Below, piece by piece: positions 34,933 to 46,192 of a stretch of DNA of 64,000 bases (positions are counted from its first letter, which is position 1; every line of letters starts with the position of its first letter). The stretch is from Lysobacter terrestris (GTDB taxonomy: Bacteria > Pseudomonadota > Gammaproteobacteria > Xanthomonadales > Xanthomonadaceae): NCBI RefSeq assembly GCF_014489475.1, contig NZ_CP060820.1:2496001-2560000 (forward strand), written 5' to 3'. The position numbers and the translations under genes are program-made. Under the pieces are notes generated by a model. The model worked only from the letters and a program-made list of their open reading frames with translations. It did no database searches and had not been told where the DNA came from.

Positions 34933-35589
34933 ATGTTCTCCCGACTTCCCCCCGTTACCAAGGGCTTGTTGATCGCCAACGGCCTGATGTTCCTGCTGCA
35001 GTGGCTGCTGGGCGACGAGCAGCTCTCGGCCCTGGCGTTGTGGCCGATCGGCATCGACGGCAATCCGTTCTCGCAGGGCTTCATGCCCTGGCAGCTGCTG
35101 ACCTACAGCTTCCTGCACGGCAACCTGCCGCACATCGCGTTCAACATGCTCACGCTGGCGATGTTCGGCTCGCAGATCGAATACGTCTGGGGCGCGAAGC
35201 GCTTCCTCAACTACTACCTCGTGTGCGTCGCCGGCGCGGCGCTGTGCCAGCTGCTGGTGGGCTGGTGGACGCTGTCGCAGGGCGGTGAGGCGTATCCGAC
35301 GCTGGGTGCATCCGGCGGCATCTTCGGCCTGCTGCTCGCCTACGGCCTGATGTTCCCGAACCAGCGCGTGATGCTGCTGTTCCCGCCGATCCCGATGAAG
35401 GCGCGGACGCTGGTCATCCTCTACGCCGTGATCGAACTGCTGCTCGGCCTGAACGGCTGGCAGCCTGGCGTCGCCCACTTCGCGCACCTGGGCGGCATGC
35501 TGTTCGGGTGGCTGCTGCTGCGCTACTGGAGCGGGAAGCCGCCGTTCGGGCGCAAGCCGCGCGGACCGCGGATGCGCGTCGTGCGCTGA
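34933..35589 (+). CDS. Rhomboid family intramembrane serine protease
   Basis: 218 residues, about six membrane segments. Catalytic Ser127 in GASGGIFG and His185 in AHFAHLGGMLFG, plus the HIAFNMLTL loop. Start taken at MFSRLPP with a GAGGTG site just upstream; an in-frame ATG lies 24 bases earlier. Cleaves membrane-anchored substrates; natural substrate unknown. Confidence 0.92.
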   Translation: MFSRLPPVTKGLLIANGLMFLLQWLLGDEQLSALALWPIGIDGNPFSQGFMPWQLLTYSFLHGNLPHIAFNMLTLAMFGSQIEYVWGAKRFLNYYLVCVAGAALCQLLVGWWTLSQGGEAYPTLGASGGIFGLLLAYGLMFPNQRVMLLFPPIPMKARTLVILYAVIELLLGLNGWQPGVAHFAHLGGMLFGWLLLRYWSGKPPFGRKPRGPRMRVVR

Positions 35590-35614
35590 CGGCCTGTTGC
35601 GAGTGCATGAATGC

Positions 35615-35642
35615 GAACGGCGCGGAAACTTCCGCGCCGTTC
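35615..35642 (+). terminator. Rho-independent terminator after rhomboid gene
   Basis: Stem GAACGGCGCGGAA / TTCCGCGCCGTTC followed by TTGTTTT. It sits between the rhomboid gene and the convergent M13 peptidase gene and could serve both. Confidence 0.8.
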
Positions 35643-35667
35643 TTGTTTTGCGAGGGGGCGCTTGAGG

Positions 35668-37731
35668 CTACTTCTTCGCCGCCACCGGCGCTGCCGGTGT
35701 GGCTGACGGCCACAACGCATTGCGCTGCTCCGCCTTGGCCTGCATCGCCGTGCCGGCCTTGCAACCGAACGCATCGCCGAAGCCGCCGAGGTTGTACAGC
35801 GGACCGTTCACGCGCCACTGCCCCGGCGGATAGACGCTGCTGGCGGCGAGTTGCACCGCCGCTTCCTTCGTCAGTTGCTGCGGCCACAGGTGCGCCCAGC
35901 CGTTGAAGAAGGCCTGGCGTGCGTCCTTGGCTGCGATCGGCTGCGTGCGGTTGAACGCGATCCACGCCAGCTCGACGCCGGCCTGGTCGGCGATCGCAAT
36001 ATCGCGAACCTGGTTGCCGTTGAGCTTGCCGCCCGCGAGCGGCACGGCATAGCCGGAGTACTGCGCGACGAAGCGGCTGCCGAGTGCATCCCACGCCGCG
36101 GCTTCGGCCGGCGACCACCAGTCGCGCAGTTCGGCCTTGGCGTCCACCAGTCGGCCCTTGTTGTCGATGGCATGGCTCAGTTCGCGCCCGGCCAGCGCGC
36201 CGAACGCACCGTATTGCGCGGCCAGCGTGTCCGCCGGATCCAGCACCGGTGGCTGCAGCACGGCCGCGGTGACGATCAACCGGTTGCCGGCCAGGTCGTA
36301 GGCCAGTGCCGGCTGCTGCGGCAGCACGTCCCAGCGGCGGTCGGCGTTGCCGCGACCGATGCGCTTCATCTCTTCGCGGTGGTGCCAGGTGGAGGCGATC
36401 AGCATGTTGCTGCCGAAGCTGCCGCGTCCCATCGGTTGCACGGAGTAGTCGAGGTCGCGGCGCGGCGCGCCGACTTCGATCTTCAGCGCCTCGATCTTCG
36501 CCTCGGCTTCCGCCTTCGCCGCGTCACCCAGGCGCGGATCGCTCGCGGCCGCGTCGGCCAGCGCCGTGCGCACTTCCGTCGCGATTTCTTCCGCGCGCGC
36601 GCGCGTTGCCGGCGGCAGGTAGCGGGCGACGTATTCGTGGCCGAGCATCGGCCCGGCGGCGAGGTTGATCGCATCGAGCACCACCTGCTGCCGGCTCGGC
36701 GCCGTCGCCTGCGCGCCGAGAACGCGGCCGCGGAAGTCGAAGCTGGCGTCGCGCCACGGCTTGGCCATGTACGGCGCCATCGCGTCGCCGACGCGCCAGC
36801 GCAGGTAGGTCTTCCACTGCGCCGGCTTCAGCGAGCCGACGAGCTTGTCGAGCTGCGCGAACAGCTGCGGATTGGCGATCGACACCGCATCGTCCTTCAC
36901 GCCCTGCGCCTTGAGGAACTCGGCCAGCTGCAGCTTGCGGTAGGTCTTGCCGAGCCCGGCCACGGGCACCGGCGCGTAGTTCGCACGCGGACTGCGCAGC
37001 TCGACCAGCGGCTTGCTCGCCTGGGCGATGCGCGTCTCCAGGTCGATCACCTGTTGCGCTTCGGCGGCGGCCTTGTCCGCAGGCGTGCCGGTGAGCACGA
37101 GGATCTTCTGCACGTAGCCGTTGTACAGGCCCAGCAGGGTGCGCGTGTCGGCGTCGCCGCGGGTGTAGTACGCCGGATCGGGCAGGCCCAGCCCGCCCTG
37201 GCTGAAGTAGCCGATGTGGCGGTTGAGGTCGTTGAGGTCGATGTCGGCGCCGAAGTTGAAGGCGACGGGAATGCCGACCTGGTGCAGCGCCGCGATCGAA
37301 GCCGAGACGTCGCCGGCCTTCTTGATGGCGTTGATGCGACCCAGCAGCGGGGCGACGGGCGCGGCACCGTCGCGCTCGACCGCCGCTTCGTCCAGGCCGC
37401 TGGCCCAGAAGTCGCCGAGCAGCTTCTGCACGTTGCCGCGCGGCGCGAGCGCGGCCGCGTCGAGCAGTTCGACCTGCTGCCGGCGCGTGCGATCGCCGAG
37501 CTGCTCCATCGCCGACAACGCGGGCACGCCCGGCAACAGCGTGTTCGACTTCAGCCAGGCGCTGTTCGCATGGGCGTAGAAGTCGCTGCACGCGTTGGTG
37601 CTGGCGGCCGGCGCCTTGGCCTTGCCGGATTTCTTCTTCGCCGCGTGCGCGTCGGGCGTCGCGCTGCCGGCGACCAGGGTGACGAGCAGGGCATATGCGA
37701 GCGGGCGTAGTGAAGGCATCGCCGGGTCCAT
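35668..37731 (-). CDS. M13-family (neprilysin-like) peptidase with degenerate zinc site
   Basis: About 687 residues with an N-terminal signal (LAYALLVTLVAGSATPDAHA); start at 37731 or, in frame, 37719. The M13 fold is clear along its length, but the zinc motif HExxH reads RELSH: Arg516 (codon CGC at 36184-36186) replaces the first zinc-binding His. The third ligand, the Glu of GENIAD, is Ile578 in DIAIAD. NAYY of the substrate cleft is LAYD. Two of three zinc ligands are therefore lost; the protein is probably a non-catalytic paralogue of the intact M13 peptidase next door, with which it is tandem. Confidence 0.9.
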   Translation of the reverse strand: MDPAMPSLRPLAYALLVTLVAGSATPDAHAAKKKSGKAKAPAASTNACSDFYAHANSAWLKSNTLLPGVPALSAMEQLGDRTRRQQVELLDAAALAPRGNVQKLLGDFWASGLDEAAVERDGAAPVAPLLGRINAIKKAGDVSASIAALHQVGIPVAFNFGADIDLNDLNRHIGYFSQGGLGLPDPAYYTRGDADTRTLLGLYNGYVQKILVLTGTPADKAAAEAQQVIDLETRIAQASKPLVELRSPRANYAPVPVAGLGKTYRKLQLAEFLKAQGVKDDAVSIANPQLFAQLDKLVGSLKPAQWKTYLRWRVGDAMAPYMAKPWRDASFDFRGRVLGAQATAPSRQQVVLDAINLAAGPMLGHEYVARYLPPATRARAEEIATEVRTALADAAASDPRLGDAAKAEAEAKIEALKIEVGAPRRDLDYSVQPMGRGSFGSNMLIASTWHHREEMKRIGRGNADRRWDVLPQQPALAYDLAGNRLIVTAAVLQPPVLDPADTLAAQYGAFGALAGRELSHAIDNKGRLVDAKAELRDWWSPAEAAAWDALGSRFVAQYSGYAVPLAGGKLNGNQVRDIAIADQAGVELAWIAFNRTQPIAAKDARQAFFNGWAHLWPQQLTKEAAVQLAASSVYPPGQWRVNGPLYNLGGFGDAFGCKAGTAMQAKAEQRNALWPSATPAAPVAAKK

Positions 37732-37843
37732 GGGGGAAGGGCGCCCGAGTGTAACAAGGGTCCTGCGAACGTCATGACTGGCCGCGCAACCGCGCACGCT
37801 GGTCGCGGCCTTTGCCCGACATGGGCAAAAAACAGGCAAAAAA

Positions 37844-37874
37844 GAAGGCCCGGACGACGAGGTACCGGGCCTTC
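37844..37874 (-). terminator. Rho-independent terminator between the two M13 genes
   Basis: Stem GAAGGCCCGG / CCGGGCCTTC with an 11-base loop, followed on the minus strand by a T-run. It lies 51 bp after the stop of the second M13 gene. Confidence 0.8.
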
Positions 37875-37925
37875 GGGTCGGCCGCCGGAGACCGGCGGCC
37901 TTACCTTCGTTCGGTGGTCAACCGA

Positions 37926-40028
37926 TCACCAGATGACCACCTGCTTGTCGCCTTCACGCACCATCGGCTGCCCCGCCTTGCACGAGAACGCCGCGGCGAA
38001 CGCCGGCAGGTTCGACGGCGCGCCGATCGCGCGGAAGTTCGCCGGCGCGTGCGGATCGGTGGCGAGGCGCACCTTCAGCGCTTCCGGGGTGAAATTGCGG
38101 CGCCACACCGTGCCCCAGTTGAGGAAGAAGCGCTGGTCGCGGGTCAGGCCGTCGGTCTTCGGGTCGTCCTTGCCTTCCGTCGCCTTCTTCATCGCGTCAT
38201 AGGCCGTGGCCAGGCCGCCGAGGTCGGCGATGTTCTCGCCCAGGGTCAGCTTGCCGTTGACGTGCGCGCCCGGCGCGGCTTCGTAACCGTTGAACTGGTT
38301 GATCAGCTTGTCGGTACGGCTGGAGAAGCCCTTGGCGTCGGCGTCGCTCCACCAGTTCTCGAAGTTGCCGGTGGCACCGAAGCGGCTGCCCTGGTCGTCG
38401 TAACCGTGGGTCATCTCGTGGCCGATCACCGCGCCGATGCCGCCGTAGTTGGTGGCGTCGTCGGCGTTGGGATCGAAGAACGGCGGCTGCAGGATCGCGG
38501 CCGGGAACACGATCTCGTTCTGCAGCGGGTTGTAGTAGGCGTTCACCATCTGCGGCGGCATGCCCCACTCGGTGCGGTCGACCGGCTTGCCGATCTTGCC
38601 CAGCTGCCACTTGTAGTTGAACTGGTTGGCCGCCAGCACGTTGCCGATGTAGCTGTCGCGCGAGGTGGCCAGGCCGGTCCAGTCGCGCCACTTGTCCGGG
38701 TAGCCGATCTTCGGGGTGAAGCTGGCCCACTTCTCCATGGCCTTCTTCTTGGTCTCGTCGCCCATCCAGTCGAGCTTCTCGATGCGCGCCTTGAGCGCCT
38801 CGGACAGGTTCTTCACCAGCTCCTGCATGCGCGCCTTGGATTCCGGCGAGAAGGCGACCTTGACGTACATCTGGCCCAGCGCTTCGCCGGCCTGGTTCTC
38901 GACCGTGTCGAGCACGCGCTTGCCGCGTTCCTTCAGTTCCTTCTGGCCCTTCAGCGTCTTGTCGTAGAACTCGTAGTTCTCCTGCACGAAGGCATCGGAC
39001 AGGAACGGCGAGGCCTTGTCGACGGTGTGGAAGCGCAGGTAGCTCTGCCACTGCGCGGCCGGCACGTCGGCCAGCATCTTGCTGACTTCGGCGTGGAAAG
39101 CCGGGATCGACAGCGAGAACATCTTCGGCACCGCGACGCCCTGCGATTCGAAGAACTTGGTCCACGCGAAGTTCGGCGCCAGCTTGTCGGCGTCGGCCGG
39201 GCTGACCGGGTTGTAGTACAGCGAGACGTCGCGCGAGAGTTCCTCGCTCGACTTCGACACCTTGGCCAGGCGGGTCTCGAACGCGATCACGTCCTTGGCC
39301 TGCTTGGCGGCATCGGCGGCGGCCACGCCCGACAGCTCGAGCACCTTGGCCACGTGCTGCTCGTACGCCGCGAGCTTTTCCTTCTTGTCGGCGTCGAAGT
39401 AGTAGCCCTTGTCGGGCAGGCCCAAGCCGCCCTGCGCGGCGTAGGCGATGTTGTTCTTGGAATCCTTGAAGTCCGCTTCCGGGCCGAAGCCGAACAGCAC
39501 GTTCTCGCCCTGCGCAGCGCTGGTGCGCAGGTAGTCGGCGATCTTGTCCTGGCTGTCGAGCGCGGCGATGGCGTCGAGACGCGACTTCAGCGGTTCGATG
39601 CCCTGCGCGTTGATCTTCGCCGAGTCCATGCCGGTGGCGTAGAAGTCACCGACGATCTTTTCCACGCCAGTGGCGTTGCTCATCGCCGCGGCCTGCTCGG
39701 CCAGCTGGCGCTGCACGCCCTGCGAGCGCTCGTCGAGCATCTCGAACGCACCCCACGAGCTGCGGTCGCCCGGGATGGCATTGGCCGCGAGCCACTTGCC
39801 GTTGACGTAGCCGCCGAAGTCCGTGCAGGCGTCCTTGGTGGCGTCCAGGTCGCCGATCGCGAAGCGGTTGACCGGCGGCAGCTTGCTCTCGTCCAGCGTG
39901 AACGCGGCTTCGGCGGTGGCGGCCGGGGCCGGCGAGGAGGCGGCTTCTTCCTTCTTGCCGCAGCCCGCCAGGGCGGCGGTGACGGCGAGGGACAACAGCA
40001 GGACTTGGGGCTTCTTCACGGGATTCAT
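37926..40028 (-). CDS. M13-family zinc metallopeptidase (lipoprotein)
   Basis: 700 residues. Lipoprotein signal LSLAVTAALAGC. The zinc site is intact: His537-Glu-x-x-His541 in GHEMTHGYDDQ, the Glu ligand in GENIADLGG, substrate-cleft NAYYNP. Probably an outer-membrane-attached or periplasmic oligopeptidase of the PepO/neprilysin type. The degenerate paralogue is immediately downstream. Confidence 0.94.
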   Translation of the reverse strand: MNPVKKPQVLLLSLAVTAALAGCGKKEEAASSPAPAATAEAAFTLDESKLPPVNRFAIGDLDATKDACTDFGGYVNGKWLAANAIPGDRSSWGAFEMLDERSQGVQRQLAEQAAAMSNATGVEKIVGDFYATGMDSAKINAQGIEPLKSRLDAIAALDSQDKIADYLRTSAAQGENVLFGFGPEADFKDSKNNIAYAAQGGLGLPDKGYYFDADKKEKLAAYEQHVAKVLELSGVAAADAAKQAKDVIAFETRLAKVSKSSEELSRDVSLYYNPVSPADADKLAPNFAWTKFFESQGVAVPKMFSLSIPAFHAEVSKMLADVPAAQWQSYLRFHTVDKASPFLSDAFVQENYEFYDKTLKGQKELKERGKRVLDTVENQAGEALGQMYVKVAFSPESKARMQELVKNLSEALKARIEKLDWMGDETKKKAMEKWASFTPKIGYPDKWRDWTGLATSRDSYIGNVLAANQFNYKWQLGKIGKPVDRTEWGMPPQMVNAYYNPLQNEIVFPAAILQPPFFDPNADDATNYGGIGAVIGHEMTHGYDDQGSRFGATGNFENWWSDADAKGFSSRTDKLINQFNGYEAAPGAHVNGKLTLGENIADLGGLATAYDAMKKATEGKDDPKTDGLTRDQRFFLNWGTVWRRNFTPEALKVRLATDPHAPANFRAIGAPSNLPAFAAAFSCKAGQPMVREGDKQVVIW

Positions 40029-40206
40029 GTTGTAAACGGGCTCCGGCGGACACGGCTAGGCCCCGGGACCGGGGCGAACGCCGACATTAACCGGCTGGCG
40101 CGGTTCCGGCGGGTGTCGAAAGTCAGGGCCGGGGTGGTGGGGTGGGCGCCGCCCGGTTCAGGCCTGGAGCAGGGGTGCTTGGGCGGATGGGGTCGCACCT
40201 CCTTCC

Positions 40207-40665
40207 TCAGCTGCCCCGGCGATAGGCCATGGAGACGAAGGCCGGGACGGCATCGGTTTGCGGCGCGGCCGTGGCGACGAAACCCAGCCGCTCGTAGACC
40301 GGGACCGCGAACAGGGAGGAATTCACCGTGAAGCGCTCCACGCCTTCAAGGTCTGCCAGGATGCGCAGCCACAAGGCACGCGCCAGCCCCCGCCCATGCA
40401 GGTCGGAACGGACAAACAGGTGATACAGATGCGAGCCGTCGCGTACCGCCGCGAAACCGCACAGCTGCGTATCGTCCATCGCGACGTAGTGGCGGAAGTT
40501 GGGCGCAGTGATGCGTGCTGACACCGCTTCCGGGGCAAGTGTGGCGAGGAAATCCTGCGCGTCCGGGCTTGCCGGGTCGGCAATGTAGAAGTGGGAAAGG
40601 CCGATGATCAGGCCGCTGATCGCAGGCGCGTCCGCTTCAATTCCCGGGCGAATCGTGATTTCCAT
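40207..40665 (-). CDS. GNAT family N-acetyltransferase
   Basis: 152 residues from MEITIRPG (an in-frame ATG 24 bases upstream overlaps the preceding small gene). GNAT acetyl-CoA loop VRSDLHGRGLARALW and the C-terminal VPVYERLGFVATA. Substrate unknown. It is the first clearly chromosomal gene beyond the distal end of the integron array. Confidence 0.85.
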   Translation of the reverse strand: MEITIRPGIEADAPAISGLIIGLSHFYIADPASPDAQDFLATLAPEAVSARITAPNFRHYVAMDDTQLCGFAAVRDGSHLYHLFVRSDLHGRGLARALWLRILADLEGVERFTVNSSLFAVPVYERLGFVATAAPQTDAVPAFVSMAYRRGS

Positions 40666-40667
40666 TG

Positions 40668-40805
40668 TCAGGTGCGCAGGCCGCCCCATGAAGCCGTGGG
40701 GATTTGCTCATGGTTGGAATCCTTGACGGGTTTCCCTGGTCTGTCCTCAGCAAAACAATGGGAACTGGCCAGCAACATTGCATAGATAGCGAATGCGTTG
40801 CGCAC
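40668..40805 (-). CDS. Small secreted peptide, just beyond the array end
   Basis: 45 residues, GTG start with AAGGAG 7 bases upstream. A signal-like segment (NAFAIYAMLLASSHCFA) is followed by a short polar tail. It ends 2 bp before the GNAT start. It lies between the decayed terminal attC and the chromosome, so it may be the remains of the oldest cassette or a chromosomal gene. No family recognised. Confidence 0.55.
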   Translation of the reverse strand: MRNAFAIYAMLLASSHCFAEDRPGKPVKDSNHEQIPTASWGGLRT

Positions 40806-40842
40806 GAGAATCTCCTTATTCAAGTCCGTGGGCTTGGCGAAT

Positions 40843-40891
40843 GAACTAAGCCGATCCGTGGAGCGGCGTCGGCTTGAATGAATTGTTAGGC
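40843..40891 (-). repeat. attC 1 (terminal, truncated)
   Basis: R'' GCCTAAC and a variant stem (GATCCGTGGAGCGGCGTC on the plus strand) are present, but the low-coordinate half lacks the CAGGCGTTAGGC core. This marks the decayed distal end of the array. Confidence 0.85.
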
Positions 40892-40894
40892 CCA

Positions 40895-41203
40895 TCACCG
40901 CACCCGGTGAAACGTGCCCGAATCTGAGCGAATGGTATCAGCGCCAATCACCGTGTACCGGAAGGTAGAGCCCTTGTTGGCGCCATCTTCATACGTAACC
41001 AAGACATCGTTCCAATACGTCTTGTAAGAAACTCTCTTGATGGTACCCATGGACTCCACTTGACCATGACGGAAAGACACGGTCACCGGAAATGGGTCTG
41101 TCATTCTCCATGTGCCCTCAAGCGGTCCAGGACTCTTGCTGGTACAGGCTGTGAGACCTAACGCCACGATGCCAAGTGCCGTGCCGCGAAGGAGATTGCT
41201 CAC
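40895..41203 (-). CDS. Cassette 1: lipoprotein of unknown function
   Basis: 102 residues with a GTG start. Lipobox LGIVALGLTAC. The mature part, LEGTWRMTDPFPVTVSF..., looks like a short beta-sheet domain (lipocalin-like start GTW). Function unknown; last cassette of the array. Confidence 0.75.
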   Translation of the reverse strand: MSNLLRGTALGIVALGLTACTSKSPGPLEGTWRMTDPFPVTVSFRHGQVESMGTIKRVSYKTYWNDVLVTYEDGANKGSTFRYTVIGADTIRSDSGTFHRVR

Positions 41204-41227
41204 AGTTCCTCTGAACTTGCGAATGGG

Positions 41228-41287
41228 GCCTAACGCCTGAACTAAGCCGAGCCGCGAAGCGGCTTCGGCTTGAATGAATTGTTAGAT
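41228..41287 (-). repeat. attC 2
   Basis: 60 bp; R'' ATCTAAC, core GTTAGGC; one stem variant (GAACTAAGCC for GAATTAAGCC on the plus strand). Confidence 0.95.
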
Positions 41288-41289
41288 GG

Positions 41290-41739
41290 TTACTGCCAGT
41301 AGCGTGAGTCTTCAAATGCCGGCTGCAGGCAAACCGAATTTGGGATCTCGGTGCGAGCGGCATCAATTGGCTCCACCCAAACCTTGTAGTTCTTTGGGTC
41401 GGTCCGGCGGTAGCGAACGATATATGCGCTACCTGCCTCAAACTTGTGGGTGATTGAAGTAATACCTTCCCCGGAAACGTTCCACGAAGCCCCCGGTGCC
41501 ATATAGAGAACCCTGATCGTGTGCTCGCCAGGCGCGACAATGAGCCTTTGCGTCTCGAACCGCTTGAATACAGTTGAGTCAACACCTTCAAGGTGCACGA
41601 GCCCACGGCCTTGGCCTAGGCAGACTTCCTTTACAAGGACAGCGCCGCTCGATCCAGCACTAGGATCGGTGTAAGTGATTGTTGGTGCGGTCGTTGCACA
41701 ACCGGTCAGACAAACGAGAAGGCAAAGTACAAAACGCAT
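41290..41739 (-). CDS. Cassette 2: lipoprotein of unknown function
   Basis: 149 residues; start chosen at MRFVLCLL with GGGGAG upstream. Lipobox LCLLVCLTGC. The mature part has a PEGA/DUF2846-like feel (LIVAPGEHTIRVLY, SAYIVRYRR): beta-rich, envelope. Function unknown. Confidence 0.75.
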   Translation of the reverse strand: MRFVLCLLVCLTGCATTAPTITYTDPSAGSSGAVLVKEVCLGQGRGLVHLEGVDSTVFKRFETQRLIVAPGEHTIRVLYMAPGASWNVSGEGITSITHKFEAGSAYIVRYRRTDPKNYKVWVEPIDAARTEIPNSVCLQPAFEDSRYWQ

Positions 41740-41755
41740 AGATCTCCCCATAACC

Positions 41756-41815
41756 ATCTAACGCCTGAATTAAGCCGAGCCGCGAAGCGGCTTCGGCTTG
41801 AATGAATTGTTAGGC
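41756..41815 (-). repeat. attC 3
   Basis: 60 bp; R'' GCCTAAC, core GTTAGAT, which matches the ATCTAAC R'' of attC 2. Confidence 0.95.
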
Positions 41816-42007
41816 AGCGGGCGGAGGTGCTTGGCTGCCATCCGTTGGATCCGCCTGAGGCGTGATTGGTGGGTCATTGCAGCAAATGCACTCGGCGTCG
41901 TCCAATTGGATGGTCGGCTGCTCGGGTGGTGGCGGGAGGGATGGCCGTGTAGCAGCACATGCCGAAAGAATCAGTGCCGCCAGCAAGGTCATTACTCGAA
42001 TCGCCAT
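41810..42007 (-). CDS. Cassette 3: short Pro-rich lipoprotein
   Basis: 65 residues. Lipobox LAALILSAC, then a Pro-rich stretch and a Cys pair (CICC). The TAA stop is part of the attC 3 R'' box (GCCTAAC). Function unknown. Confidence 0.65.
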   Translation of the reverse strand: MAIRVMTLLAALILSACAATRPSLPPPPEQPTIQLDDAECICCNDPPITPQADPTDGSQAPPPAA

Positions 42008-42022
42008 GGAGCTTTCCCCGCG

Positions 42023-42082
42023 GCCTAACGCCTGAATTAAGCCGAGCCGCGAAGCGGCTTCGGCTTGAATGAATTGTTAGGG
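42023..42082 (-). repeat. attC 4
   Basis: 60 bp; R'' CCCTAAC, core GTTAGGC; standard stem. Confidence 0.95.
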
Positions 42083-42322
42083 GGCAGCGGAAGCATCCGA
42101 GTCCCCAGAGATGACTTTGCGATAGCTAGCGACGGCTGCCCACAGCGGGACGGCGAAAGACAGGGCTAGCCAGAGGTAGCCAAGCGCGTCGGAAAAAGCA
42201 GGGGAGCTGCCGTGTCCCGAGAACAAGAACATCGCCATCAGGAAGTAGACAAACGCAAACGGGAGGAGGGTGACGACAAACATCCCCATTGCGGCTCCTA
42301 TCGCTACGAGTTGCTGCTTCAC
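42077..42322 (-). CDS. Cassette 4: small membrane protein
   Basis: 81 residues, two membrane segments (about 8-33 and 45-66). Stop codon lies in the attC 4 R'' box. No family recognised. Confidence 0.7.
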   Translation of the reverse strand: MKQQLVAIGAAMGMFVVTLLPFAFVYFLMAMFLFSGHGSSPAFSDALGYLWLALSFAVPLWAAVASYRKVISGDSDASAAP

Positions 42323-42332
42323 GCGGTCTGCC

Positions 42333-42452
42333 CCCTAACGCCTGAGTTAAGCCGACCCGCAGCGGGAAGAACCGGTGGGCGAGGCGACGGCAAATTGCGA
42401 GGAGTTCAAGACGAAGCCGCGAAGCGGGTTCGGCTTGAACGAATTGTTAGGC
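42333..42452 (-). repeat. attC 5 (extended, 120 bp)
   Basis: R'' GCCTAAC and core GTTAGGG flank a site twice the usual length. The arms are standard (TTAAGCCGA... CGGCTTGAAC) but the hairpin end carries about 60 extra bases. Core matches the CCCTAAC of attC 4. Confidence 0.85.
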
Positions 42453-42716
42453 GGCACTTGCGGCGCTGCCCTTGCATAGAAAACGAGCAATTCTGGGAGA
42501 GGCTCTCAGGCCGATAAGGCCAACGGCAATGTCGATCGGTGCCATTAGAGCGCTTGGCCAAGCAGAGTTTTTGAGCAACTGAAACACGGTGTCCGGTGGT
42601 GTAGACGCGATAAGCAAAAAGGCGACTACACAGAACACAAAAGACATGATGCCAAAGACAATCATCAAAAAGCTGGCAAATCTGACCAGCACGACTGAAA
42701 AATCAAATGCGCTCAT
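42447..42716 (-). CDS. Cassette 5: small membrane protein
   Basis: 89 residues; AGGAGG ribosome site. Two or three membrane segments (about 8-37 and 55-72), Phe/Val-rich. Stop in the attC 5 R'' box. Function unknown. Confidence 0.7.
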   Translation of the reverse strand: MSAFDFSVVLVRFASFLMIVFGIMSFVFCVVAFLLIASTPPDTVFQLLKNSAWPSALMAPIDIAVGLIGLRASPRIARFLCKGSAASAA

Positions 42717-42731
42717 GAACCCTCCTGTGCC

Positions 42732-42791
42732 GCCTAACGCCTGAATTAAGCCGAGCCGCGAAGCGGCTTCGGCTTGAATGAATTGTTAGGC
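42732..42791 (-). repeat. attC 6
   Basis: 60 bp, GCCTAAC / GTTAGGC, standard stem. Confidence 0.96.
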
Positions 42792-43115
42792 CGCGTGCCG
42801 AGAAGTGGGGCGCACGGCCTTAACTGTGAGAAAAAATGATGTGGCGAGCCATACTAGGAGGACTGCGCTGATAATGGTTGCAACGGACAGCCACTGTCCG
42901 AGATCCCGCAAGTCACTGGCCGTTCCGGTGCCCAGTGCGGCTGGAACGGCGCGAAGGAAAACATCCTGGCCCCAGAAGAGCCATGCCACAAAGGCGGGGA
43001 TGGAGATCAAAAGCGAAAGGCTGCTAAAGCGCCGAAGACGGACGTGAAGAAGGACGCAGCCCGCAAGAAACAGCAGCAGGGCCAATATCTCTAGTATTTG
43101 AGTCGCGATGGTCAT
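42786..43115 (-). CDS. Cassette 6: membrane protein, three segments
   Basis: 109 residues; membrane segments at about 8-25, 34-50 and 77-98. Ends in the attC 6 R'' box. No family recognised. Confidence 0.7.
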   Translation of the reverse strand: MTIATQILEILALLLFLAGCVLLHVRLRRFSSLSLLISIPAFVAWLFWGQDVFLRAVPAALGTGTASDLRDLGQWLSVATIISAVLLVWLATSFFLTVKAVRPTSRHAA

Positions 43116-43132
43116 AGAGGCTCATCCTAGCG

Positions 43133-43192
43133 GCCTAACGCCTGAATTAAGCCGAGCCGCGAAGCGGCTTCGGCTTGAATGAATTGTTAGGC
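43133..43192 (-). repeat. attC 7
   Basis: 60 bp, GCCTAAC / GTTAGGC, standard stem. Confidence 0.96.
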
Positions 43193-43197
43193 CGCAC

Positions 43198-43713
43198 CTA
43201 GGCTTGTCCGTAACGATACTTGTAGATCAGGCGCCGCAAACCTGAGTTGCCAAGTACTAGCCATACGGAAAGAACTAGCTGAACTAGGGTCGCAACGATG
43301 CCAGCAATCTGCTCGTGACTCCACTCAACGGAGGTTCCGGTGGCGTCTGTGACTTGCTTGGACTTGATGAAAAGTGTGAGCCAGTACGATGCATCGGCAA
43401 TAGAGTATGCAAATAGCCATACCCCGATGAGTACGAGGCCAAGTGAGAGTGCGATAGGGGCGCCAATAACCTCCTCGGAGCGAGGCTCTCGCATCACTGG
43501 CAGGAGTCTCCTGGCAATGGATAGCGGAAAAAACCACAAGAAGGCGCAGAGTAAGATACCTGCCGCAAGGACCGCAGCATAAACCCCGGCCCATTCCTTT
43601 CCGCCGGGGCCAGTCAGGATTTGCGCCGCGCTGGGAACGTTCCGAAGTATGTTGAAGAGAACGTAGATCGAAAACAGACGGACAGCGACAGCGACTACAT
43701 CTTCTCGGCTCAC
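43198..43713 (-). CDS. Cassette 7: membrane protein, four segments
   Basis: 171 residues with segments at about 8-25, 44-65, 83-105 and 138-155. A short soluble loop carries SKQVTDATGTSVEWSHEQ. It probably cannot be excised, since the core at its upstream end (attC 8) is mutated. Function unknown. Confidence 0.75.
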   Translation of the reverse strand: MSREDVVAVAVRLFSIYVLFNILRNVPSAAQILTGPGGKEWAGVYAAVLAAGILLCAFLWFFPLSIARRLLPVMREPRSEEVIGAPIALSLGLVLIGVWLFAYSIADASYWLTLFIKSKQVTDATGTSVEWSHEQIAGIVATLVQLVLSVWLVLGNSGLRRLIYKYRYGQA

Positions 43714-43730
43714 GAAATTCCTCCTGTGCG

Positions 43731-43790
43731 GCCTAGCGCCTGAATTAAGCCGAGCCGCGAAGCGGCTTCGGCTTGAATGAATTGTTAGGG
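43731..43790 (-). repeat. attC 8 (core mutated)
   Basis: 60 bp; R'' CCCTAAC, but the core reads GCTAGGC instead of GTTAGGC (plus strand GCCTAGC at 43731-43737). The invariant GTT is broken. Confidence 0.93.
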
Positions 43791-43791
43791 C

Positions 43792-44310
43792 TCACAGGCA
43801 GCCCTCTACGTACTGAATAGCTTCCGCTGTACCCGCGTAGTAGGTAGTAACCACCCCGTGATCTGTCTCAAACCGCATGCCGTATTTACGGTTTGGCGAA
43901 TACATGGTGAGGTAAGAGCCATCGGGTGCGGTGTAGTGATGGGGTGTGATTTGTATGCGGTCGCGGTATAGGGCGAGAACGGAGTCCTGTGCGTCCCCGA
44001 CCTGTGCCCCAGAGATGGTTTTAACCCCTGAGCTCGAGACGTCAATGCGAACAAGGCGCTCGTTGACGAGCATGAAGCTCAAGGCGTCGTGCCCGGTCTC
44101 CGGCGCTACGTAGTCACAGCCCATCTCATCTGCGTCCGGGTACTGGCCGACGAGCTTGCTACCAATAGCCTGCTCCAATTCTTTACGCGTCATGCCAATG
44201 CGTGCAGGACCATAGCCGACAAACGACACTCGTAGTTCCTTTGGAACTACAGTCGTGTCTGGAGCGGCAGAAGCTCCCAGAGCGATGGCTAGGATTGCGA
44301 TGATCTTCAA
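43792..44310 (-). CDS. Cassette 8: secreted protein of unknown function
   Basis: 172 residues with a signal peptide (IIAILAIALGASAA). The mature part begins LRVSFVGYGPARIGMTRKELEQAIG, a BamE/SmpA-like GMTxxEL motif common in small envelope proteins, and ends beta-rich. Function unknown. Confidence 0.75.
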   Translation of the reverse strand: MKIIAILAIALGASAAPDTTVVPKELRVSFVGYGPARIGMTRKELEQAIGSKLVGQYPDADEMGCDYVAPETGHDALSFMLVNERLVRIDVSSSGVKTISGAQVGDAQDSVLALYRDRIQITPHHYTAPDGSYLTMYSPNRKYGMRFETDHGVVTTYYAGTAEAIQYVEGCL

Positions 44311-44316
44311 TATGAG

Positions 44317-44376
44317 CCCTAACGCCTGAATTAAGCCGAGCCGCGAAGCGGCTTCGGCTTGAATGAATTGTTAGGC
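44317..44376 (-). repeat. attC 9
   Basis: 60 bp; R'' GCCTAAC, core GTTAGGG matching attC 8 R''. Confidence 0.95.
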
Positions 44377-44745
44377 AGCATCCGTGTTGCTGCCATACCC
44401 AGAGATAGAAGCCACTACCGGAAGCGGTGCCGGGTTGTCTGTGTAGCTGTATACCTCTAGCCCCGAGAGGTGGCCATTGAGCGCCCAAATGATGAGCCCA
44501 ATGTCCTCACCACTAGGAGCTTTTGCAACCGCATCAGCGACCATGTGGGCAACTTGATCTGGCCCTGGCCTGCAAAAATCCACAGAGGCGCATCCGCACT
44601 CGCACCGGCCGACGACCTGAAGCGCCCGGACCGACGAGCTAAGTGCAGCCGCGGACTCGTCAGTTGCCGCCACGGCAAGCGCACGCTCAATGACAGCCAC
44701 TTCTGCTTCTGAGATTTGCCTGACGGTCGCTAGAGATCTGGACAT
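44371..44745 (-). CDS. Cassette 9: soluble protein with CxCxC motif
   Basis: 124 residues, no signal or membrane segment. The motif CECGCASVDFC in the middle may bind a metal. Starts 4 bp from attC 10 and ends in the attC 9 R'' box. Function unknown. Confidence 0.75.
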   Translation of the reverse strand: MSRSLATVRQISEAEVAVIERALAVAATDESAAALSSSVRALQVVGRCECGCASVDFCRPGPDQVAHMVADAVAKAPSGEDIGLIIWALNGHLSGLEVYSYTDNPAPLPVVASISGYGSNTDAA

Positions 44746-44748
44746 GCT

Positions 44749-44808
44749 GCCTAACGCCTGAATTAAGCCGAGCCGCGAAGCGGCTTCGGCTTGAATGAAT
44801 TGTTAGAT
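44749..44808 (-). repeat. attC 10
   Basis: 60 bp; R'' ATCTAAC, core GTTAGGC. Confidence 0.95.
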
Positions 44809-45387
44809 CTCCGCGCCTGGAAGTGAGGCAAGGAGCTTTTGCTGTTGCTGATTAGCCTTGTGGTGCAGGGCTAGCTCTCGAAGCAGGTGAGGGTGGGTAG
44901 AGCGAACTAGCTCAAAAGTATCTCGAATGACCCGATCAATGCGCGGGCCATTGCCCCCAAGCAACGCCACTGCTAGGGCAGGAGTAACAAGACCAAGAAC
45001 CTCAGGATAGGGCGATGTTTTGAAGGCCAAGGTCTGGAGAGCATGCGCTCGTCTGAGGTTGTGCGGTTCAGTATCCGCAATGGTCACCAGTTCCGCGGCC
45101 CACTCTGAAGCCAGTTGCGGGTTGACCTTGGCCAGGGCTCCAACCGGCCAGGAAGCAACTGTAACGACTCGATTTGGCTCGCTCTGCTCTTTGGCTGCGG
45201 CGAAAGCTTTGGAAAGCGCGGCCAGTTGATCTTTGCCGCGGAGTTGTTCCGCAGCAGCCGTGAGAGATTGGCACCGATACCAGGCATGAGCAATGGTGCC
45301 AGCTAGCTTGAGCGCAGCCTTAGGGTCAGTAGCTGCAAGGCGAGAGACCTGGGCTCGGCCTTGGACGTCGCTTGCGGAAACTTCCAT
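44803..45387 (-). CDS. Cassette 10: soluble helical-repeat-like protein
   Basis: 194 residues, nearly all helical, with TPR/HEAT-like Ala-Leu-rich helices (AATDPKAALKLAGTIAHAW, LASEWAAELVTIAD). No enzyme motif. Stop in the attC 10 R'' box. One of the larger cassette genes. Confidence 0.75.
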   Translation of the reverse strand: MEVSASDVQGRAQVSRLAATDPKAALKLAGTIAHAWYRCQSLTAAAEQLRGKDQLAALSKAFAAAKEQSEPNRVVTVASWPVGALAKVNPQLASEWAAELVTIADTEPHNLRRAHALQTLAFKTSPYPEVLGLVTPALAVALLGGNGPRIDRVIRDTFELVRSTHPHLLRELALHHKANQQQQKLLASLPGAEI

Positions 45388-45391
45388 GGAG

Positions 45392-45451
45392 ATCTAACGC
45401 CTGAATTAAGCCGAGCCGCGAAGCGGCTTCGGCTTGAATGAATTGTTAGGC
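45392..45451 (-). repeat. attC 11
   Basis: 60 bp; R'' GCCTAAC, core GTTAGAT matching attC 10 R''. Confidence 0.95.
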
Positions 45452-45865
45452 CCGTGGCCCGGTGGACTCAAAGACCTTGGGGTGCGACGTGGAAAGGACA
45501 GACACGCACTCCTGATACGCCGCGATTATGAACTCAAAAGGCCGGGTGTCTTGATGCTTGGCATAGAAGTCGTCGCGGGTTGACTCGAGCTCAAACTAGC
45601 CGCCGGCACTAACCTCGAAAAGCCACGTTGATCCCAGTGCTTGTCTGTCAGAACTCATCCAGACGCCCGCGAGGTCAAGCTCGTGCAGCACCCGCAGCCC
45701 AACCACAGAATCAAACTCCACAACGAACCTACGGTCGGTGCGCTTGGAGAGCACCTCGATCTGTGTGGGCCTTTCGTCGCTCCAATGAACGCCGACAACC
45801 TTGATGGAGTCGTCAACGAAGGGCACAGGTATAGGAGAAATTGTAGACACGGGCCTAACGCTCAA
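45446..45865 (-). pseudogene. Cassette 11: soluble protein gene interrupted by in-frame TAG
   Basis: The frame from ATG 45865 meets TAG at 45596-45598 after 89 residues, but continues in the same frame for 48 more sensible codons (FELESTRDDFYAKHQ...) to a TAA inside the attC 11 R'' box, exactly where other cassette genes end. The intact protein would be about 139 residues. A recent nonsense mutation is the simplest reading; a sequencing error is possible. Function unknown. Confidence 0.75.
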
Positions 45866-45912
45866 GGTAACCCGAGCCGCGAAGCGGCTTCGGGTTGAGT
45901 GCGTAGTTATAC
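45853..45912 (-). repeat. attC 12 (second arm type)
   Basis: 60 bp; R'' GTATAAC, core GTTAGGC. Arms read CTCAAGGTAACCCG / CGGGTTGAGTGCGTA on the plus strand instead of the common sequence, with the same GAGCCGCGAAGCGGC stem tip. Confidence 0.92.
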
Positions 45913-46192
45913 GGGGCTGGCGGAGATGCCCGAGACATTGGAATGCAGCCCCCCCGATAGCTACTGGTGACCGTTACGGTATCAAGTTGCCGGACGGGGC
46001 TCTACCCGGAACCCGTGATGCGAGTAGTAACCGAAGGAGCAGGGCAATGGGAGCACCGCGAGCCGTCCGCTCAAGGCCGAAGCCGAGCGACCTTCCGATG
46101 GCGAGAGCGGCAAAGGCCACTTGCCGGAGCCGACTGCGAACGATGCGACAGGGTGGCCTAGATGCAGGCGCCGGCAATGCCGTCCCAGCACC
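45913..46192. other. Cassette 12: ORF-less cassette, family A
   Basis: 280 bp without a convincing gene; the short ORFs on both strands have no ribosome site and are not shared with relatives. Sequence is shared with cassettes 18, 29 and 36: GGGGCTGGC at one end, TACGGTATCAAGTTGCCGGA and CTCTACCCGGAAC inside, CCCAGCACC next to the GTATAAC box at the other. Candidate non-coding RNA or regulatory cassette. Confidence 0.7.

Follow-up and report, generated by a model that had tools for sequence, protein, structure and literature searches.

A candidate M13-family pseudopeptidase conserved among the Lysobacteraceae

What does a metallopeptidase do once the residues that cut peptides have gone from it, while the rest of the protein is kept? 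The question is raised by two tandem genes of the M13 family on the reverse strand of the Lysobacter terrestris genome, in a stretch of 64,000 nucleotides (contig NZ_CP060820.1, positions 2,496,001 to 2,560,000), here called the window, to which all coordinates refer. P0002 (37926..40028) encodes an intact M13 peptidase of 700 residues, a predicted lipoprotein with a LAGC lipobox. P0001 (35668..37719) lies downstream of it and encodes a protein of 683 residues with a Sec-type signal peptide. The initial annotation had described P0001 as a pseudoenzyme with a conserved fold, perhaps a regulator or binding partner of its active neighbour. The first proposal is strongly supported by our analysis, and for the whole family rather than this genome only; the second is not established. 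With moderate confidence, we favour as the best overall explanation that P0001 is a conserved, exported and soluble M13 pseudopeptidase of the Lysobacteraceae (Xanthomonadaceae) that acts without cleavage.

Catalytic residues and fold of P0001

The open frame of P0001 extends over 35668-37839 (723 residues). Its likely start, the ATG at 37719 (residue 41), was picked by orthologue agreement together with the sequence itself, and the residue numbers given here count from the frame start at 37839. P0002 has NAYY at residue 496, HEMTH at 537, ENIAD at 598, the DPH His at 659 (within TDPH) and Arg666. At the places where active M13 enzymes have HExxH, ENIAD, NAYY and D-x-H, P0001 carries RELSH, DIAIAD, ALAY and SVY. 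The RELSH codons (36172..36186, reverse strand; residues 552-556, positioned from the P0001 frame) put an Arg in place of the first zinc His, and the IAIAD codons (35986..36000, reverse strand; residues 614-618) put Ile614 in place of the Glu that is the third zinc ligand, with Asp618 kept. The alignment sets NAYY opposite ALAY (511-514), retaining the second Tyr (Tyr514). The transition-state His (His711 in NEP, a number that entered no count) is replaced by Tyr670. The general-base Glu553, the second His556, Asp559, Asp618 and Arg676 are retained. HExxH, the third-ligand Glu of ENxxD, the NAY/FY motif and the transition-state His, all expected of an active M13 peptidase, are thus absent; of the three zinc ligands P0001 has only the second, and it has neither the substrate Asn nor the transition-state His. 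Much of this had been noticed initially. The tandem pair with an intact P0002 is borne out by motifs and Pfam matches, and RELSH with Arg516 and Ile578 is correct when the numbering starts at the ATG of residue 37 (552 and 614 in the 723-residue frame). The reported replacement of NAYY by LAYD was right as to the loss of the motif, but one residue out of register.

The Pfam domains M13_N and M13_C (Peptidase_M13_N and Peptidase_M13) span the whole length of both proteins, well above cut-off, with E-values for P0001 of 1.9e-80 and 1.7e-34. The genome holds six M13 genes, and the M13_C score of P0001 is by far the weakest, at 123.5 bits versus 210-240; the other five proteins all bear HExxH. An AlphaFold2 model, computed from P0001 and 40 orthologues (41 rows, drawn from 71 distinct sequences), has a predicted local distance difference test score (pLDDT) of 88.3 and a predicted template modelling (TM) score of 0.85, and is low only at the N terminus and the tail. 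Foldseek returned as its top match the peptidase TfPepO (9eyg; TM-score 0.86 over the target, 25% identity), and all 19 of the 19 PDB matches at E ≤0.001 were M13 structures or the M13-containing complex 6row. In the predicted model, the two-lobed M13 fold is kept, as had been proposed. Judged by its sequence, P0001 is a member of M13 by descent, and is not an M13 peptidase by its residues.

The effect of such replacements can be gauged from Shewanella PepS. In the portion of that study available to us, the substitutions Glu532Ala, Glu592Asp, Asp538Asn, Asp596Ala and Arg660Lys each abolished activity and His654Ala left little of it; Glu592 is the third zinc ligand and His654 the transition-state residue (PMC4701951). 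P0001 lacks the counterparts of both, plus one zinc His, so that, by analogy with this homologue, canonical catalysis by P0001 is very unlikely. Taking the motifs together, we regard it as highly probable that P0001 is non-catalytic.

Distribution, decay of the zinc site and selection

Of 198 genomes sampled from the family, 157 have an orthologue of P0001 (E ≤1e-120). These cover 42 of 54 genera, with one match per listed genome; the other 41 genomes had no match at this threshold. Named carriers include Lysobacter, Luteimonas, Stenotrophomonas, Pseudoxanthomonas and a metagenome-assembled genome of Thermomonas. None was found outside the family in a class sample, in which three of 274 genomes, all of the same family, matched at 1e-112. 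Four genomes of four genera without a P0001 match contain divergent M13 proteins that lack NAYY (L114, L132, L133 and L134). These fall with the P0001 clade on long branches of a mixture-model tree; they are possible deeper members of the clade, and its true spread may be wider.

Motifs were counted in 172 distinct orthologous open reading frames that scored above 400 bits to P0001 and had a lower score to P0002. The four divergent proteins, a broken copy (L088/L130) and 30 duplicate sequences were left out, and a fragment of 552 residues (L258) was retained. The NAYY Asn is present in none of the 172. The first zinc His is found in 136, the second in 96, the third-ligand Glu in 109, the transition-state His in 90 and the HExxH Glu in 157. 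The equivalents of Asp618 and Arg676 and the second Tyr of NAYY are invariant (172/172), and the second-shell Asp559 is conserved in 95% of the clade. A complete set of HExxH and third Glu (H-E-H-E) occurs in 55 sequences and is incomplete in 117, most commonly as HExxR..E (36), AExxH..V (8) or HExxG..E (7). The active P0002 clade is uniform by comparison: NAYY Asn, both His, both Glu, Asp, transition-state His and Arg are present in 54 of 54 sequences, the one variable residue being the first Tyr of NAYY (51/54). The closest relatives found for P0001 (L008 and L009, 79% and 75% identical) have REL(S/H)H and a Val at the third-ligand position; both ligands are thus missing in orthologues too, a check that had been called for initially. 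The earliest branches of the clade (L033, L032 and L034) carry Gln for the catalytic Glu (GQQLTH, GNQMAH and GHQLHN) and have the third zinc ligand.

The history of these losses was read from a main tree built with the motif columns excluded. On it, the NAYY Asn was lost once, at the stem of the clade. For the zinc/Glu set, the main tree gives 16 losses if loss is irreversible and 11 Fitch parsimony changes, a second FastTree run gives 10 changes, and an IQ-TREE phylogeny of 71 orthologues gives 12 and 9, with weak support at some deep nodes. Counted separately on the main tree, the third ligand was lost in 21 events and the transition-state His in 20-27. The few independent pairs that are informative agree in direction for losses of the zinc set and of the transition-state His, without reaching significance. 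On the sequences at hand, the zinc site has decayed repeatedly and independently after a single ancestral loss of NAYY. The initial annotation had held that orthologues retaining HExxH would point to a recent strain-specific mutation; such orthologues do exist, 55 of them with the third Glu as well, but the repeated independent decay speaks against the recent event that they were taken to imply. A 45-row mixture-model tree, whose backbone remains open, separates the P0001 clade both from that of P0002 and from intact enzymes that belong to other families of the order. As the P0001 clade is not nested within that of P0002 on this tree, a recent duplication of P0002 is unsupported as the origin of P0001.

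Selection on the protein has not relaxed with the metal site. In 11 genomes holding both genes, omega is 0.163 for P0001 and 0.161 for P0002, and nine of the 11 P0001 copies have a broken zinc set; purifying selection, proposed initially as a check, is thus as strong as on the active neighbour. Synonymous saturation at high G+C content may bias these values, equally for both genes. Four groups with broken zinc sites gave 0.145, 0.120, 0.125 and 0.100, and omega = 1 fitted worse by 264-747 log-likelihood units; one of the eight listed loci (L140) was skipped here, as it was not in the distinct set. Site-rate percentiles for the first His, second His, third-ligand Glu and transition-state His are 44, 37, 64 and 55 in the P0001 clade versus 4, 4, 11 and 4 in the P0002 clade. 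The HExxH Glu, Asp and Arg of the P0001 clade remain slow (percentiles 15, 3 and 2). Moreover, of the positions conserved to at least 99% in the active clade, 72 drop below 80% in the P0001 clade, and many of these lie near the active-site motifs. The P0001 clade has a different fixed residue at eight positions and new constraint at 14. Its clade-specific fixed sites are Leu202, Tyr242, Val319, Phe475, His487, Arg493, Arg502 and Pro510. As far as these alignments indicate, constraint is gone from the metal site and not from the protein as a whole. P0001 thus combines lost catalytic residues with purifying selection on the protein, which is what distinguishes a pseudoenzyme.

A non-cutting role and the alternatives to it

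As the zinc site was lost 10-16 times at no visible cost, it was probably already dispensable. The cutting machinery has been lost many times in a protein that selection nevertheless preserves, and this protein therefore probably does something other than cut peptides. The sequences show that the common ancestor of the clade lost the substrate-holding NAYY motif once, and that zinc ligands and the transition-state His were then lost repeatedly in separate lineages, while purifying selection on the whole protein matched that on P0002. P0001 would act through its shell, binding another protein or peptide without cutting it. A non-catalytic function of the clade as a whole appears likely to us.

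Several observations weigh against extending this to every member. The HExxH Glu is slow-evolving and kept in nearly the full set counted above, and of the 55 H-E-H-E orthologues, 42 also have the transition-state His, Asp and Arg; some lineages may therefore still bind zinc or cleave something. Together with the conserved Asp559 and the invariant Asp618 and Arg676, these sequences could be taken to mean that the clade is basically one of active peptidases whose specificity was altered by the change from NAYY to xLxY, with the window lineage as one of several that died later and kept a side function. This seems unlikely, though it is the strongest of the alternatives. Across the clade, the columns of the zinc ligands change at rates in the middle of the range, the third ligand and the transition-state His were each lost in a score or more of separate events, the earliest branches all have Gln for the catalytic Glu, and selection is just as strong in groups with a broken site. 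Zinc-set and transition-state-His losses share a direction, but not significantly.

As to what a non-cutting P0001 would bind, our best single guess is that it is soluble and modulates envelope M13 peptidases, or serves them as a scaffold or decoy. Possible targets are the lipid-anchored P0002, the other four HExxH-bearing M13 proteins of the genome, or both. This specific role is the leading guess but an unproven and tentative one. The position of the two genes could suggest a closer bond, in which P0001 would be an obligate heteromeric partner of P0002, as inactive M16 subunits are of active ones; pseudopeptidases of other families do act as subunits, according to the accessible text of a 2024 review (PMC11266112). 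Neighbours were counted by targeted tblastn, in place of a six-frame open-reading-frame clustering that over-merged at high G+C content. Of 66 distinct loci whose flanks were long enough, 54 have a P0002-like gene on the same strand upstream of P0001, though it is not always the immediate neighbour. The remaining evidence counts against such a partnership, and against a modulator of P0002 as well. Twelve of the 66 loci have no such neighbour, and P0002-clade genes occur in genomes without P0001 (for example G006, G024 and G035). An intrinsic terminator lies between the two genes of the window (37829..37872, reverse strand; AGGCCCGG, 11 nt, CCGGGCCT, then a T-rich run). A generic scan missed it because that scan allows loops of at most 8. 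A terminator hairpin with a T run is present in 35 of 49 distinct spacers, versus 0.5 expected from mononucleotide shuffling, and this conserved element argues against a simple P0002-P0001 operon. The predicted localisation, called with custom regular expressions, differs too. A lipobox is found in all 53 assessable P0002 rows (54 examined), in contrast to the P0001 clade, where 118 of the 172 rows could be assessed (54 have no usable anchor motif): 109 of these carry a plain signal peptide, four a lipobox and five neither; P0001 is thus predicted to be exported and soluble. Finally, the rates of P0001 and P0002 covary, but not specifically: the partial correlation of branch rates is 0.39, versus 0.43 between P0001 and an MGMT-like control (25 loci, 47 branches). 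Given the terminator, the separate occurrence, the differing localisation and the unspecific covariation, tandem position is only weak evidence of partnership, and an obligate partnership seems more doubtful still than altered specificity.

It is very improbable that P0001 is a relic on its way to loss, with a fold kept only by recency. A frameshifted copy in one genus and the family genomes without a match would be in keeping with decay, but omega values of 0.10-0.163, the rejection of neutrality, the presence in most genera and the confident full-length fold led us to reject it, save for that one genus. In Alkalisalibacterium limincola (L088/L130), where an intact active M13 gene adjoins it, the orthologue is broken across frames, by a frameshift or by mis-sequencing, and the P0001 gene may be dying there. 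A sequencing error or a mutation of this strain, to which the HExxH kept in part of the orthologues might have pointed, is of negligible probability and is refuted by the nearest relatives, L008 and L009, which share the Arg for the first His and the Val at the third ligand, and by the change of several separate residues.

Other features of the locus were recorded alongside. The hairpin core of the spacer, GGCCCGG...CCGGGCC, is conserved in many loci of different genera, with varying loop and flanks. A rhomboid-like gene lies downstream in convergent orientation in 48 of 68 loci, and an Rfam search of window positions 35000-46000 gave no match. From 40871 to 63667, the reverse strand contains 52 copies of an 11-base repeat (51 of the form TC[A/G]TTCAAGCC and one TTGTTCAAGCC), all on that strand and spaced about 200-1100 bases apart, where 1.4 matches would be expected by chance in the window. 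This region has 55-59% G+C, compared with 66-72% to its left. It resembles an extensive cassette array of a chromosomal integron, ending a short way upstream of the two M13 genes.

Relation to known M13 proteins and significance

Pseudopeptidases are best described in animals. In whole-length homology, fold, second-shell Asp and Arg, and export, P0001 resembles bacterial M13 enzymes such as PepO (TfPepO, 9eyg; PgPepO, 9fma), Zmp1 of Mycobacterium tuberculosis and Shewanella PepS. It differs from them at the catalytic centre: as far as the available sources describe them, HExxH, ENxxD, NAxx and the transition-state His are all present in PepS and in the family motifs, whereas in P0001 two of the three zinc ligands (the first and the third), the NAYY Asn and that His are missing. 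Like P0001 in this respect are the 21 neprilysin-like (Nepl) proteins of Drosophila, which belong to M13, include Gone early and, in the sections accessible to us, are described as predicted inactive, with catalytic motifs lost, and mostly predicted to be secreted (PMC8223033, PMC11266112). These are animal proteins that evolved separately; the P0001 clade is bacterial, with one match per listed genome and a graded, repeated loss of the zinc site. The alpha subunit of the mitochondrial processing peptidase, of family M16, offers another likeness, an inactive homologue beside an active one, as P0001 adjoins P0002 (PMC11266112). That is another family, however, and by the available account its inactive subunit helps to form the active centre. 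Among the M13 rows of the 2024 review of metallopeptidase pseudoenzymes, in the part available, only Gone early of Drosophila is named (PMC11266112), and the accessible part of a 2008 survey of M13 mentions possibly inactive insect members (PMC2259306). Our literature search, which excluded subscription papers and MEROPS, found no bacterial M13 pseudopeptidase.

We think it reasonably likely that P0001 represents a single-copy family of bacterial M13 pseudopeptidases found across most Lysobacteraceae, in which the zinc site, after the loss of the substrate motif, wore away in parallel on some ten or more occasions. The chamber would thereby have been converted to an exported protein that binds without cutting, either as a receptor for peptides or proteins or as a decoy or modulator of envelope peptidases. 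Naming by domain match alone mislabels such genes, as Pfam scores P0001 far above its cut-off. The clade also forms a natural series of replicates, in which named strains of Lysobacter, Luteimonas, Stenotrophomonas and Pseudoxanthomonas have zinc sites that are intact, half lost or lost altogether, so that the role of an M13 shell without catalysis can be asked about directly.

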